Assembly: GCA_016214125.1 (NCBI GenBank)
Contig: JACRPC010000014.1
Coordinates: forward strand, 1-64,000
Source of the DNA: Rhodospirillales bacterium
Lineage (GTDB): Bacteria > Pseudomonadota > Alphaproteobacteria > Rhodospirillales > WMHbin7
Length of the DNA: 64,000 nt
Direction: 5' to 3'
The position numbers were made by a program, and so were the translations under genes. Numbering within the stretch: the first letter of the stretch is position 1; each line of letters begins with the position of its first letter. Below the pieces are notes generated by a model. The model had not been told where the DNA came from and did no database searches. It saw nothing but the letters and a program-made list of their open reading frames with translations. Shown here one piece after another: positions 36,204 through 42,068 of this stretch.

Positions 36204-36494
36204 CTAGGCCGCCGCCTTGAAGCGGCGCACGCCGATCTTTCCCACCCGCTCGCGGGCGGCCGCCAAATCATACTGCATCTGCTGTTGCAGCCAACTTTCC
36301 GGGCTGCCGCCGAAACCCTGCGCCAGGCGGATCGCCATTTCCGGCGATATGCCCAGGCGGCCGTTAAGCAGCATCGAAAGCGTGTTGCGCGACACGCCAA
36401 GCCCGGCGGCGGCTTCGGTCACGGTTAGACCAAGAGGTTCCAGACACTGGCGCCGGATGACGTGGCCCGGGTGTGGCGGATGGCGCATGAGCAT
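36204..36494 (-). CDS. higA: HigA-type antitoxin
   Basis: A 96-residue HTH_XRE protein of the VapI/HigA family. The helix-turn-helix is visible as [20 protein letters not shown], followed by [22 protein letters not shown], a strong family signature. It neutralises HigB and should repress the pair. Lies 17 bases after the toxin gene in the usual higB-higA order. ATG 36488 is an alternative start. Confidence 0.88.
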
Positions 36495-36511
36495 GGCGTT
36501 GCGATTCCTCT

Positions 36512-36790
36512 TCAATGATAGTCCAAATAGTCGATGTCGACAGCGTGGCCGTCCTCGAACCGAAAGATCACCCGCCAATTCGCCCGCACCGTCACCGCCC
36601 AAAAACCCGCGTAGACGCCCTTGAGGCGATGAAGGCGAAATCCGGGCAAGTTCATGTCGTTGGCCGAGAAGGACGCATTCAGCCGAGCCAGAATGTCGCC
36701 GACAACCGTGCGATGCTCGGCATCGATGCGGCCGGCATCGCCCCGCTCGAAATACCGCTTGAGCGCCCGGCTGCGGACGCTTCGGATCAT
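36512..36790 (-). CDS. higB: HigB-type RelE-superfamily toxin
   Basis: A 92-residue mRNA-interferase toxin. The start at ATG 36790 gives [18 protein letters not shown], the usual HigB opening. [21 protein letters not shown] and [20 protein letters not shown] match the RelE-fold core; the Arg/His surface used for ribosome-dependent mRNA cutting is retained. Upstream an inverted repeat (36797-36817) may be the operator. Confidence 0.88.
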
Positions 36791-36796
36791 CCCCGA

Positions 36797-36817
36797 CTGT
36801 AACAAGTCCTATTACAG
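36797..36817. promoter_or_regulatory. Inverted repeat in front of higB
   Basis: CTGTAA (36797-36802) and TTACAG (36812-36817), nine bases apart, lie 7 bp upstream of the higB start. This is the place for autoregulation by the toxin-antitoxin complex. The repeat arms are short. Confidence 0.35.
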
Positions 36818-36876
36818 CCGGCAACCGGATCGGAATGCGGCCGGTGCCGATGGTGTCGGACTCGACGATATTGAGT

Positions 36877-36894
36877 TTGGTGGGCCCGGTAGGA
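36877..36894. repeat. Distal attachment-site repeat (copy of tRNA 3' end)
   Basis: An 18-bp exact copy of the tRNA 3' terminal segment including CCA. It has no tRNA body attached, so it reads as the far att site of the island. Confidence 0.7.
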
Positions 36895-36929
36895 GTGCAA
36901 AAATTCCGATTTTTCGGAGCGTTGCAAAA

Positions 36930-36990
36930 AGGTGAGGGAAGATAACGGCGCTTTGAAAGCTAATGGTTATTTTCAGCGGCTCCCTCACCT
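36930..36990. other. Large compound hairpin upstream of the HEPN gene
   Basis: AGGTGAGGGA (36930-36939) pairs with TCCCTCACCT (36981-36990), a perfect 10-bp outer stem. Inside, ATAAC (36942-36946) pairs with GTTAT (36966-36970) and GCTTT (36950-36954) with AAAGC (36956-36960). It could be an RNA structure or a cluster of recombination-protein sites. A smaller TCCGA-TTTT-TCGGA hairpin lies at 36905-36918. The 308-bp gap 36791-37098 contains no other gene. Confidence 0.55.
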
Positions 36991-36993
36991 GAA

Positions 36994-37012
36994 AGAACCG
37001 CTGCTCGGTTCT
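36994..37012. other. Second hairpin upstream of the HEPN gene
   Basis: AGAACCG (36994-37000), loop CTGCT, CGGTTCT (37006-37012): a perfect 7-bp stem directly after the large hairpin and about 87 bp before the ATG. No run of T follows, so it is not a classical terminator. Confidence 0.5.
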
Positions 37013-37098
37013 CCTCAAGAAATGTAGAGATTAGCATTTTCAAAAAATTCCTACAGAATACCCAGTAGCGAGGGAACTAACGAACTCAGGGGGCGCTG

Positions 37099-37980
37099 AT
37101 GTCAAGAATAGCGTGGAATGCCACAGAACCGCCAATTTACGGCTGTCTTACAGGTATCGAACTTCCGGAGGAAAGAGTTGATCTTCTGTCCGGTATCACG
37201 CTTAGACGAATTTATGTTGATACATTCGGCACCACTATGATGGCATTTGCGCCTCCGCCGATGCCAAAGTCGCACCATCCAGGTCCCTGGGCAGCGGTAC
37301 GCGGGGGCTTCATGTTTGAAGGACGGGTCGAAGTTGCACTAACTGACAAAAGTGCGTGCGATGGATTGACGCCTTCAGTAGCTGTTTGGCTCATTGCTGC
37401 ACTCCTGCGGCTTCGCGTGCCATCGCCAATTCGACTTGCAGTGATAGGGAATATGCCTTTTGACACAAATGGACTACCGGTTACTCAAATGGATGCGGTA
37501 GCTTTTGAGAGTACGCCGCATCAAATCGGAGCATTTACCGAGGTCAGAACCGTAATTGGTAAGGAGGAGTTTGAGTGGCTAAGAGATCTCCTGCCTATTG
37601 CTACGAGGCTGTATCATGACGAACGTTTTTTTAGAGCTTTCTCAATTTTTGACCAGGCTCGATGGACGCCAACGCAGGAAATGGCCGCAGTCCTTGTATG
37701 GACAGCTATCGAAATTCTGTTCGACCTTTCTAGCGAACGCGAGAAAACAAAGGCAATTTGCAATGCTTTATCCGGTTATGTTGGGGTAGATAAAGCGGAC
37801 CGGGATAGAGCCTATCAAGTAATAAACAATTTGTATTTCAAACGAGGGCAAACTGTGCATGCGGGTCGAAGCATGGGTCCTCAAGACGTAATTCAGTCGT
37901 TTCGCTTTGCCAGCGTGGCGTTTCAGCGGGTCCTAATTGATGGGAGATTGCCCCCGCAACAGAACGTAACGGTACATTAG
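37099..37980 (+). CDS. HEPN-domain protein (ApeA-like), candidate RNase
   Basis: 293 residues, the only gene of the island. Residues 1-160 form an unrecognised alpha/beta region. Residues about 170-285 are helical and fit an ApeA-like HEPN domain: AVLVWTAIEILFDLSSEREK, then a basic helix and YFKRGQTVHAGR. In the latter R249-x4-H254 is the RxxxxH pair that forms the active site of HEPN ribonucleases. HEPN RNases are common in abortive-infection and toxin systems, so an RNA-cutting defence role is likely but inferred. aggggg precedes the ATG. Codon use is AT-rich, unlike neighbours, indicating transfer. No antitoxin-like partner is present. Confidence 0.7.
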   Translation: MSRIAWNATEPPIYGCLTGIELPEERVDLLSGITLRRIYVDTFGTTMMAFAPPPMPKSHHPGPWAAVRGGFMFEGRVEVALTDKSACDGLTPSVAVWLIAALLRLRVPSPIRLAVIGNMPFDTNGLPVTQMDAVAFESTPHQIGAFTEVRTVIGKEEFEWLRDLLPIATRLYHDERFFRAFSIFDQARWTPTQEMAAVLVWTAIEILFDLSSEREKTKAICNALSGYVGVDKADRDRAYQVINNLYFKRGQTVHAGRSMGPQDVIQSFRFASVAFQRVLIDGRLPPQQNVTVH

Positions 37981-38002
37981 GAGGTGACGTTCCAAGACCA
38001 AA

Positions 38003-38014
38003 TTCAGGTGAGGG
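38003..38014 (+). repeat. TTCAGGTGAGGG, inverted partner of 36982-36993
   Basis: This 12-mer after the HEPN gene is the exact reverse complement of CCCTCACCTGAA at 36982-36993 before it. The 9-mer AGGTGAGGG also occurs directly at 36930-36938. The motifs therefore bracket the gene just inside the two att repeats. Confidence 0.6.
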
Positions 38015-38051
38015 CATAAAATTCATTTACATAAAAAAGTATTACGTGAAA

Positions 38052-38069
38052 TTGGTGGGCCCGGTAGGA
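38052..38069. repeat. Proximal attachment-site repeat inside tRNA 3' end
   Basis: Copy of the 18-mer that includes the tRNA CCA end, acceptor 3' strand and the 3' side of the T stem. Complete tRNA structure is preserved across it. Confidence 0.7.
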
Positions 38070-38129
38070 CTCGAACCTACGACCAAGCGGTTATGAGCCG
38101 CCCGCTCTAACCAACTGAGCTACAGGCCC
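38053..38129 (-). tRNA. tRNA with CAT anticodon, probably tRNA-Ile2
   Basis: 77 nt with encoded CCA. The acceptor GGGCCTG pairs with CGGGCCC, the D arm contains AGTTGG, the anticodon loop is CTCATAA, and the T arm is GTAGG-TTCGAGT-CCTAC. The CAT anticodon can be Met or the lysidine-modified Ile2. The GGGCC acceptor stem resembles alphaproteobacterial tRNA-Ile, so Ile2 (read as AUA after TilS action) is preferred. The 3' end is the island's attachment site. Confidence 0.93.
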
Positions 38130-38209: not shown

Positions 38210-40180
<1,971 letters not shown>

Positions 40181-40187
40181 GAGCTCC

Positions 40188-42068
40188 TCAGGCGTTCCGG
40201 GTTCGATTGCGGCCCTTGCCGGCGGGCGCGGTGGGTTCCCTCGTCCCCTCATCGGGATCGAAGGAGTCGAAGCGCGACGATTTTTCGCGCGAAAGAGCCA
40301 GCAGCTTGCCGACATTGCTGTCGGAGAGGTCGGTGCCCAGGTGGCGTTCGGCCTGGGCCATGTCGGCCGCAAGGTGGCCGACCTCATGCACGTCGAGCGT
40401 ATGCCGGAATCCGGCGATCACTTCGGCCTTCGGCGAGTCGGGCCGAGCGAACGATGCGTGAACCATCAGGAATTCCGCGCCGGTCACGGAGTCGACAATG
40501 CCGCTCAATCCCTGCTCCGCGAGATAATGCCGAAGGGCCGCGGAATCAAGGTGCGATTCGCGGGTCCCGTGCTTTAAGACCTCCTGGCGAAGCTTGTCAA
40601 GGGTCGGTTCGGTAAAATGCACCTGCGCCAGCCTTTCCGCCACCCCATCGAGGATGTCGGGGTGAAGCAAGACGCAGGCCAACAGGACCCTTTCGCGGAT
40701 GGAATCGGCCGATAAGGGGGTTCGGGGGCTTGTTGGGGCGGGTGAATACCCGACTCGTCCGCTAGGTCCGCCGCGCCCGCCGCGCCCAGCCGGCCCCCGG
40801 GCGGGAGCAAAGGCGGCGCGCATCCTTTCGCGCTTCATGTGGAAATATTGGGTTTGGACGGAACGGTCGGCGATGGTGCGGATATGGTCGTCGAGCCGCT
40901 TGTCGAGGCCGGCGCGGCGCTCGGGCGTGTCGAGGCGGCTTCCTTGGGTCTCCAGGCTCCACAGCACCTCGAAGAGCGGCCGGGCCCCATCAAGCACGGC
41001 GCGCAGCGCCGCCACGCCCTTGGCGCGGATCAGACTGTCGGGGTCCTCGCCCTTGGGCAGCACGGCGAAGCGCAGCGAATGGCCGGCCTTGAGCAACGGC
41101 AGCGCCCGTTCCAGGGCCCGGGCGGCAGCGCGCTGGCCGGCGGCATCGCCGTCGAAGCAGAGGATCGGTTCGGGCACCAGCTTCCAAAGCTCCTCAATCT
41201 GAGTCTCGGTGAGCGCGGTGCCCAAAGGCGCCACCGCGAAGCCCAGCCCGGCCTGATGCATGGCGATGACATCCATATAGCCTTCGCTCACCACCAGGGT
41301 CTGTTCGGCCCGCGCCGCTTCCCGCGCCTGGGCCAGGGCGAACAGCACCCGGCCCTTGTGGAACAGCGGCGTGTCGGGGGAATTGAGATATTTCGGCTGG
41401 CCGTCGCCCATCACCCTTCCGCCGAAGGCGATCACCCGGCCGCGCCGATCGGTGATCGGGAACATCACCCGGCCACGGAAACGGTCGTAGGGCTCGCGCT
41501 CGCCCTCGGGCTCGATCAGCAGGCCGGCCTCGATCAACAGCTCCTTGGTGATGCCACCGCCCAAAAGCGCGGTCTTCAGGGCGTGGCGGTCGTCGGGCGC
41601 AAAGCCCAGGCGGAAGCGGGCGATGGTGTCTTCGGAGAGATCGCGGTTTCTTAGGTAATCAAGGGCGACTCGGCCCTCGGGCGCCCGCAGCATCCGTTCA
41701 TAATAAACGCACGCCGCTTCCATCACCTCGTGGAGCGAGGTTTCCCGCTGGGCGCGCTCGCGCTCCTCGGGCGTGGTGACCGGAATCGGCATGCCCGCCT
41801 CGCCGGCCAGCCGCTCGACCGCCTCGGGAAAGGACAATCCCTGGGCGCGCATGACGAAGCCGATGACGTCGCCATGGGCGCCGCAGCCGAAGCAATGGAA
41901 GAAACCCTTGTCCTCGGAAACGGTGAAGGAGGGTGTTTTTTCGTTGTGAAACGGGCAGAGCCCGCCATGCTCGCGGCCCTTGCGGACCAGACGCACCTTG
42001 CGCGCCACCACCTCGACCAGCGACAGCCGGGTGCGCAACTCATCCAGAAAATGCGGCGAAAAGCCCAT
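40188..42068 (-). CDS. dnaG: DNA primase
   Basis: 626 residues. The N-terminal zinc ribbon [11 protein letters not shown] and [11 protein letters not shown] is complete; the catalytic TOPRIM domain includes [15 protein letters not shown] and [11 protein letters not shown]. The C-terminal DnaB-interacting part is shorter and ends in a Ser/Arg-rich tail. It primes lagging-strand synthesis. It lies 25 bases after yqeY and 7 before rpoD. Confidence 0.97.

Follow-up and report, generated by a model that had tools for sequence, protein, structure and literature searches.

The question raised by positions 36,877–38,069 of the 64,000-nucleotide stretch of Rhodospirillales DNA analysed here (the window) is how a short piece of DNA, holding a single gene and no integrase, came to lie against a tRNA gene, and by what means it might be moved.

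A one-gene island at tRNA-Met

The 18-mer TTGGTGGGCCCGGTAGGA occurs at 36877–36894 and again at 38052–38069, a spacing of 1,175 bp. The inner copy of this direct repeat (the core), located with ARAGORN and a repeat search, comprises the 3′ end of an intact tRNA gene plus one base. The gene itself, tRNA-Met (CAT), lies on the minus strand at 38053–38129 and scores 71.9 bits against the Rfam tRNA model, all other Rfam matches in the window falling below the gathering score. The outer copy, identified by sequence match, is a displaced duplicate of the tRNA-Met 3′ end, including CCA. Allowing up to one mismatch, the 18-mer has just these two sites in the 3,986,285-base genome, and the reversed pattern, used as a control, has none. 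Cores and arms are given here without strand.

The tRNA gene adjoins rpoD (named from its sequence; 38210–40387, minus strand), which forms the chromosomal right flank. The left flank is a higBA-like pair (36204–36805, minus strand), made up of a HigB-like toxin (PF05015) and an HTH protein. Between the two flanks the G+C content drops to 0.478 (36895–38052) against 0.667 for the window, and no value as low occurs in 629 sliding windows of equal length. The same trend is seen at third codon positions, where G+C is 0.43 in the island gene, 0.86 in rpoD, 0.77 in higB and 0.63 in the upstream AAA gene. The repeats enclose one plausible gene, of 293 codons on the plus strand (37099–37980), no integrase is present, and no fragment of one was seen among the island's open frames. 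A sigma-70 scan found no promoter-like site. A previous, sequence-only reading had described a tRNA-bordered interval of low G+C with a repeat of the tRNA 3′ end, one gene for a 293-residue protein with R249-x4-H254, and no integrase, and all of this is borne out.

The tRNA site in related genomes

In each of the four genomes of the same family that were searched, a tRNA-Met gene adjoins rpoD, and no homologue of the island gene is found in any of the four, so the arrangement is not one of the same gene in the same place in all relatives. The sequence-only reading had called for a search for an empty site, and unoccupied sites were found. In the relative G002, a single copy of the 18-mer is present with no insert, and a different left neighbour, a hemerythrin-like gene (named by eye), reaches the tRNA. 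In G003, whose assembly is 87% complete, homologues of the flanking higBA-like pair stand directly beside the tRNA, the DNA of window positions 36205–36816 being 76% identical, and the island gene is absent. G003 also has a degenerate second copy of the core (16/18; L042:8722–8739) on the far side of higBA, 919 bp away, so that higBA may itself have arrived earlier in the same way, as a small island.

Conserved ends adjoin the repeats

Conserved ends, absent from the earlier account of this locus, adjoin the repeats for ~115 bp on the left and ~48 bp on the right. The left end, core and arm together (36876–36991), is identical at 108 of 115 positions (94%) to L040:11630–11744 of the related genome G001, where it belongs to an insert at the same tRNA, and is 77–78% identical to two further copies, G001:C30 and G002:C9. 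The right arm (38005–38052) is similar to its counterparts in the G001 tRNA-Met insert and in G001:C30.

Three arm-type sites lie at these ends. The first, AGGTGAGGG, is at 36930–36938 on the plus strand; the second, CCCTCACCTGAA, is at 36982–36993 on the minus strand; and the third, TTCAGGTGAGGG, is at 38003–38014 on the plus strand. The first two emerged from a motif count, the second also from a repeat search as an inner inverted repeat, and the third is its perfect 12-bp inverted partner, so that the cargo gene is flanked by the inverted repeat on both sides. The sequence AGGTGAGGG has three sites in the window, two in the left arm and one in the right, where 0.39 would be expected, and one of 100 shuffles reached three. 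A further motif, CAGGTGAGGG, lies at a distance of 48 bp from the core in our island and of 47 bp in G001:C30; the corresponding sequence is CAGGCGAGGG in G002:C9 and TAGGTGATAA in the G001 tRNA insert.

The similarity of the right arms was assessed by shuffling. None of 1000 shuffles aligned as well as our arm with that of G001:C30, and none as well as the arm of the G001 tRNA insert with that of G001:C30. For our arm against the G001 tRNA insert, 16 of 1000 did as well. When arms were set against unoccupied sites, the best of nine pairings was equalled by 32 of 1000 shuffles. The unoccupied sites of G002 and G004, however, reached 16 of 1000 with one another, so the pairing of our arm with that of the G001 tRNA insert is not beyond background and counts as weak evidence.

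When 317 genomes of the order were searched at DNA level for the left end, three proved to carry it: our own, G001 (twice) and G002. There were no matches in phages, and in plasmids the one match covered 39 bases within an annotated gene (E 0.03). Two scans of viral contigs with the arm patterns gave none. A loose arm pattern run against a collection of genome contigs picked out 31 stretches, 15 of them in Prochlorococcus records; 28 were rejected as having no CCCTCACC partner, one (L067) was left unjudged because the pattern match fell at the locus edge, and the two with a partner (L083 and L087) both come from the record corresponding to G001.

A core accompanied by arm sites in an arrangement of this kind is what tyrosine integrases bind, and the ends would thus be of the tyrosine-recombinase type. 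Both arms, as putative attL and attR sites, resemble those of the other copies, and no integration or transfer gene lies inside. Since the arms are known from three genomes, the case for mobility in trans rests on few examples.

Other copies of the ends

The G001 insert shares its ends and its site with our island, and not its contents. Although the ends agree so closely, the adjoining rpoD DNA shows 79% identity between the genomes, and the sequence beyond the repeat is dissimilar, 172 of 1000 shuffles aligning equally well. The G001 cargo (L040:11927–14334) is unrelated to ours and has two open frames, the longer counting 619 codons if it starts at GTG or 589 if at an ATG, the shorter 183. 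Neither matches Pfam at E ≤ 0.01, no integrase is present, and the two could be another conflict-type gene pair. In G001 the shared flank ends within the hemerythrin-like gene, and this insertion is therefore not a clean one.

The copies G001:C30 and G002:C9 are orthologous to each other and are not accompanied by tRNA-Met. In both, right arm, core and left arm follow one another uninterrupted on one strand, an attP-like order, although two elements in tandem would produce such a junction equally well. Beside the G001:C30 copy, a stretch of 7 kb (L054:2774–9762) is present in G001 and missing in G002, and it contains two copies, 99% identical, of 210 bp from a response-regulator gene. An intact tyrosine integrase in this stretch sits at tRNA-Glu. 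A supposed integrase fragment by the same copy was rejected on inspection by eye, being mostly remains that we take to be transposase-like.

Homologues of the cargo gene and their vehicles

On the genomes searched, the protein belongs to a rare and patchily distributed family. With our own genome included, homologues were found in two of 40 relatives, in seven of 317 genomes searched in the order (two with weak matches), in three of 385 genomes of the class and, in an alignment search, in three of 398 of the phylum (two of them partial). One of the three in the class, a weak protein match beside a tRNA-Gly in G362 (L004), was rejected as spurious because it has two stops in frame. The phage search gave no matches with the window protein and likewise none with its Sphingomonas homologue, and the plasmid search gave one record with the former and a second, partial, with the latter. 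Scans of genome and viral contigs with single proteins recovered no relative.

With the alignment as query, a 57% identical homologue was found on the IMG/VR contig IMGVR_UViG_3300020592_000105, and two further scans gave the same contig. Terminase and tail genes lie nearby: among the nine neighbouring proteins tested, one has a match to terminase small subunit, another to minor tail protein, two match solely families of unknown function and five have no match. A 219-codon gene (L097:5321–5980; phrog_33426) overlaps the start of the phage-borne homologue and is a possible partner. On the Sphingomonas plasmid NZ_CP155750 a single gene separates the homologue from an annotated site-specific integrase close to tRNA-Glu, and two places beyond lies a SIR2-family gene. 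In G445 the distance to a tyrosine integrase gene is 16 bp, and the neighbourhood includes AbiEii-like, resolvase and SMC/AAA genes.

A different situation is met in G352, a member of another order, where a 73% identical gene (L003:1498–2385) occupies a stretch of 1,017 bp between SoxYZ-like and cytochrome-like genes (named by eye). Two congeners are without the gene: G1060 has 19 bp in place of the stretch, and G1061 has ~72 bp against 1,070. No such gene was found in the other 22 genomes of that family, and no arms and no nearby tRNA accompany the insertion. The stretches taken from G421 and G517 contain no tRNA, and no integrase was noticed among their open frames of at least 200 codons, the G421 contig ending ~1 kb past the gene. 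The arms are absent from all seven homologue loci scanned, those of G445 and Sphingomonas included. A distant homologue in G038, near a contig end (L007:1121–6492), lies beside DNA-methylase-like and HD-like genes (by eye), possibly a defence cluster. As its homologues are found on a phage contig, near integrases and in a lone insertion, we conclude that the gene is carried by several kinds of vehicle and can also occur by itself.

Minimal element or remnant

The explanation that we favour, with moderate confidence, is that the island is a minimal cis-mobilizable element at tRNA-Met, carrying a predicted Tha/ApeA-like HEPN RNase. It would have entered at 36877–38052 by site-specific recombination of the tyrosine-recombinase type at the tRNA-Met 3′ end, retaining both ends, which consist of the tRNA-derived core and the two arms, with AGGTGAGGG twice on the left and once on the right. 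Recombination between the cores, in integration and in excision alike, would be the work of an integrase provided in trans and guided by the arms, and the island may be mobile in this manner at present.

A helper of this kind was sought among the matches to the Phage_integrase profile, of which our own genome has six and G001–G004 have 33, 30 of these giving loci. Among the resulting 36 loci, which reach at most ~1.5 kb on each side of the domain, so that an att site farther off would be missed, no integrase with these ends was found. All have fewer than two arm motifs, and a single locus (L149) has a core, with two mismatches.

These results bear on the main rival, which we regard as a real but distinctly lesser possibility: that an integrase-bearing island entered at the tRNA and suffered an internal deletion that left its ends and one gene, immobile unless rescued. 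CIMEs are indeed thought, in the account given of them, to originate by such decay (PMC5704250), and a helper is missing from the loci scanned. Moreover, the homologues of G445 and Sphingomonas, 16 bp and one gene away from an integrase, respectively, indicate that larger parents with this type of gene exist; those two loci, however, are without the present ends. Against decay there is also the pair of inserts at tRNA-Met, in our genome and in G001, which have common ends, no integrase and no cargo in common. No integrase fragment survives among our island's open frames, and by the attP-like copy no intact integrase with these ends was seen, the one there sitting at tRNA-Glu.

The cargo protein

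The minimal-element reading is completed by the nature of the cargo. The protein of 293 residues appears to consist of an N-terminal part of ~150 residues, for which a low-confidence model shows strands, and a HEPN-like helical domain at about residues 172–283 that includes E205, R249 and H254. These three residues, which present the R-x4-6-H motif of HEPN proteins with its upstream acidic residue, are invariant in all eight aligned full-length members (our own included), down to 19% identity, as are W201, F208 and Y246 among others; four partial matches were left out of this alignment.

Profile searches did not yield the HEPN match that the sequence-only reading had led us to look for. Pfam gave a single match to the protein, below cut-off, to At4g08330 (E 0.12), NCBIfam gave none, and PADLOC-DB 2.0.0 gave no family at E ≤ 10; no ApeA-type profile match was seen in the three collections at the limits used. 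In PHROGs the protein matches phrog_28161, to which no function is assigned there, at 9.9e-6, and two of three homologues match it at about 1e-24.

Structure models based on an alignment of two sequences reached low confidence, with a pLDDT of 46.9 for the whole protein and 55.2 for residues 150–293. In both, the C-terminal half is helical and R249 stands at or just past the end of a helix starting at residue 232, which in the whole-protein model extends to 247 and is followed by R-x4-H. Neither model has a Foldseek match in the PDB at E ≤ 0.001. For the C-terminal model, 11 of the first 14 rows returned by VIA-align are titled HEPN, Csm6 or MntA-HpeT, with Z values of 5.6–7.0, and the first unrelated row is the 15th, with a Z of 5.5. 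The other three of the 14 are presumably also HEPN proteins. Across the comparisons of both models, HEPN, Csm6 and HepT chains stand out. The whole-protein model gives a near-tie between AadA (Z 6.8), the HEPN toxin 7ae6 (6.7), 2hsb (6.6) and Csm6 (6.6). As Z values below 8, or below 13 for helical bundles, may reflect merely a common arrangement according to the VIA-align note, the HEPN assignment rests on motif and fold together. The comparison of these low-confidence models weakly favours a HEPN fold for the C-terminal half, and we infer such a fold. Of the more specific claim of an ApeA-type HEPN protein, the HEPN-like C-terminal half is supported, with R249 and H254 found in all eight members, whereas ApeA in particular is not confirmed by profile and the layout is equally close to Tha.

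As a self-contained HEPN RNase, the cargo would combine a variable N-terminal sensor half with the C-terminal HEPN domain; when triggered, this domain would dimerise and cleave RNA, leading to growth arrest and thereby to exclusion of the phage. RNase activity and a role in defence are predicted. We consider it less likely, though quite possible, that the protein instead serves the element itself, as toxin or regulator, or is a HEPN protein without activity. It matches no defence profile, and HEPN families without the full motif are described (PMC3710099). The arginine, the x4 spacing, the histidine and the acidic residue are nevertheless kept throughout the alignment even among its most divergent members, and homologue loci beside SIR2, AbiEii-like and SMC/AAA genes, as well as one on a phage contig, also speak for defence.

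The position at the tRNA

A further alternative is that the gene moves by illegitimate routes, its position at the tRNA being incidental and the ends belonging to an older element that captured it. The lone insertion in G352 is of the sort this would produce, as are the G517 and G421 genes, away from any tRNA or noticed integrase in the stretches taken. In the window, however, the gene fills the space between both arms with the 12-bp inverted repeat on each side, and we consider this origin improbable. A chance repeat beside a tRNA with an AT-rich gene may be dismissed, for although the degenerate copy beyond higBA in G003 indicates that partial copies can occur, the repeat has only two copies in 3.99 Mb, its ends are conserved in other genomes and unoccupied sites exist. 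Integration at this tRNA, as the sequence-only reading had proposed, is thus well supported by the two-copy repeat, the unoccupied sites of relatives, the conserved arms and the foreign composition.

Comparison with known systems

Elements that keep attL and attR and are without integration genes are described as CIMEs (PMC5704250), and 15 integrase-less ssrA islands of Dehalococcoides have been proposed as possible CIMEs (PMC3146451). As far as these accounts go, our island is like them in having att-type ends, the 3′ end of an RNA gene as target and no integrase. It is unlike the Dehalococcoides islands in its size of ~1.2 kb, its one gene and the common arms with different cargo in two inserts, and its arms would be of tyrosine type, as against the Ccr-like integrase reported there (PMC3146451). 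Unlike those cases, an integrase-bearing member with these ends was not found here. The suggestion that the island is of an undescribed kind must therefore be narrowed: the category is known, and what is unusual is the combination of a single gene with conserved arms that elsewhere enclose other cargo. Judged by titles and abstract openings, the publications found in literature searches describe no one-gene integrase-less tRNA island with conserved arms.

Among defence systems, Tha is described as a tail-activated HEPN system of Staphylococcus aureus prophages: in Tha-1, a protein of 301 residues, the N-terminal part shows no recognisable domain, the C-terminal part is HEPN with R265 and H270, and a phage tail protein acts as the trigger (PMC11087260). 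Going by that description, our protein is close to it in layout, with 293 residues and R249-x4-H254 against R265-x4-H270. One homologue sits in a phage contig, like the prophage-borne Tha, whereas our own element is not a prophage. ApeA is described as having a strand-rich N-terminus of ~300 residues followed by HEPN (PMC3710099); our protein is similar in order, on the low-confidence model, but has an N-terminus of ~150 residues and no profile match. The same source places a HEPN gene on a mobile integron element (PMC3710099), a point of likeness with our island. Ends without an enzyme, moved by the recombinase of another element, are reported for MITEs and CALINs (PMC11389934); there the enzymes are transposases and integron integrases, whereas the helper here would be a tRNA-targeting integrase.

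Implications

The island presents a compact case of a mobile element cut down to its recombination ends and one predicted effector, and it brings to light a HEPN-like protein family without a matching model in Pfam, NCBIfam or PADLOC. We suggest tentatively, as a possibility short of a probable one, that it belongs to a family of att-only cassettes in which two complete integrase-recognition ends enclose exchangeable cargo, a HEPN effector here and two other genes in G001, and which would be spread between genera by the integrases of other elements. On that same tentative reading, such cassettes would correspond, at tRNA sites, to MITEs and integron cassettes, and would serve to carry single-gene immunity. 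Common ends with different cargo make it testable whether tRNA-targeting integrases move foreign cassettes in trans, and movement of this kind may be a route by which defence genes spread.
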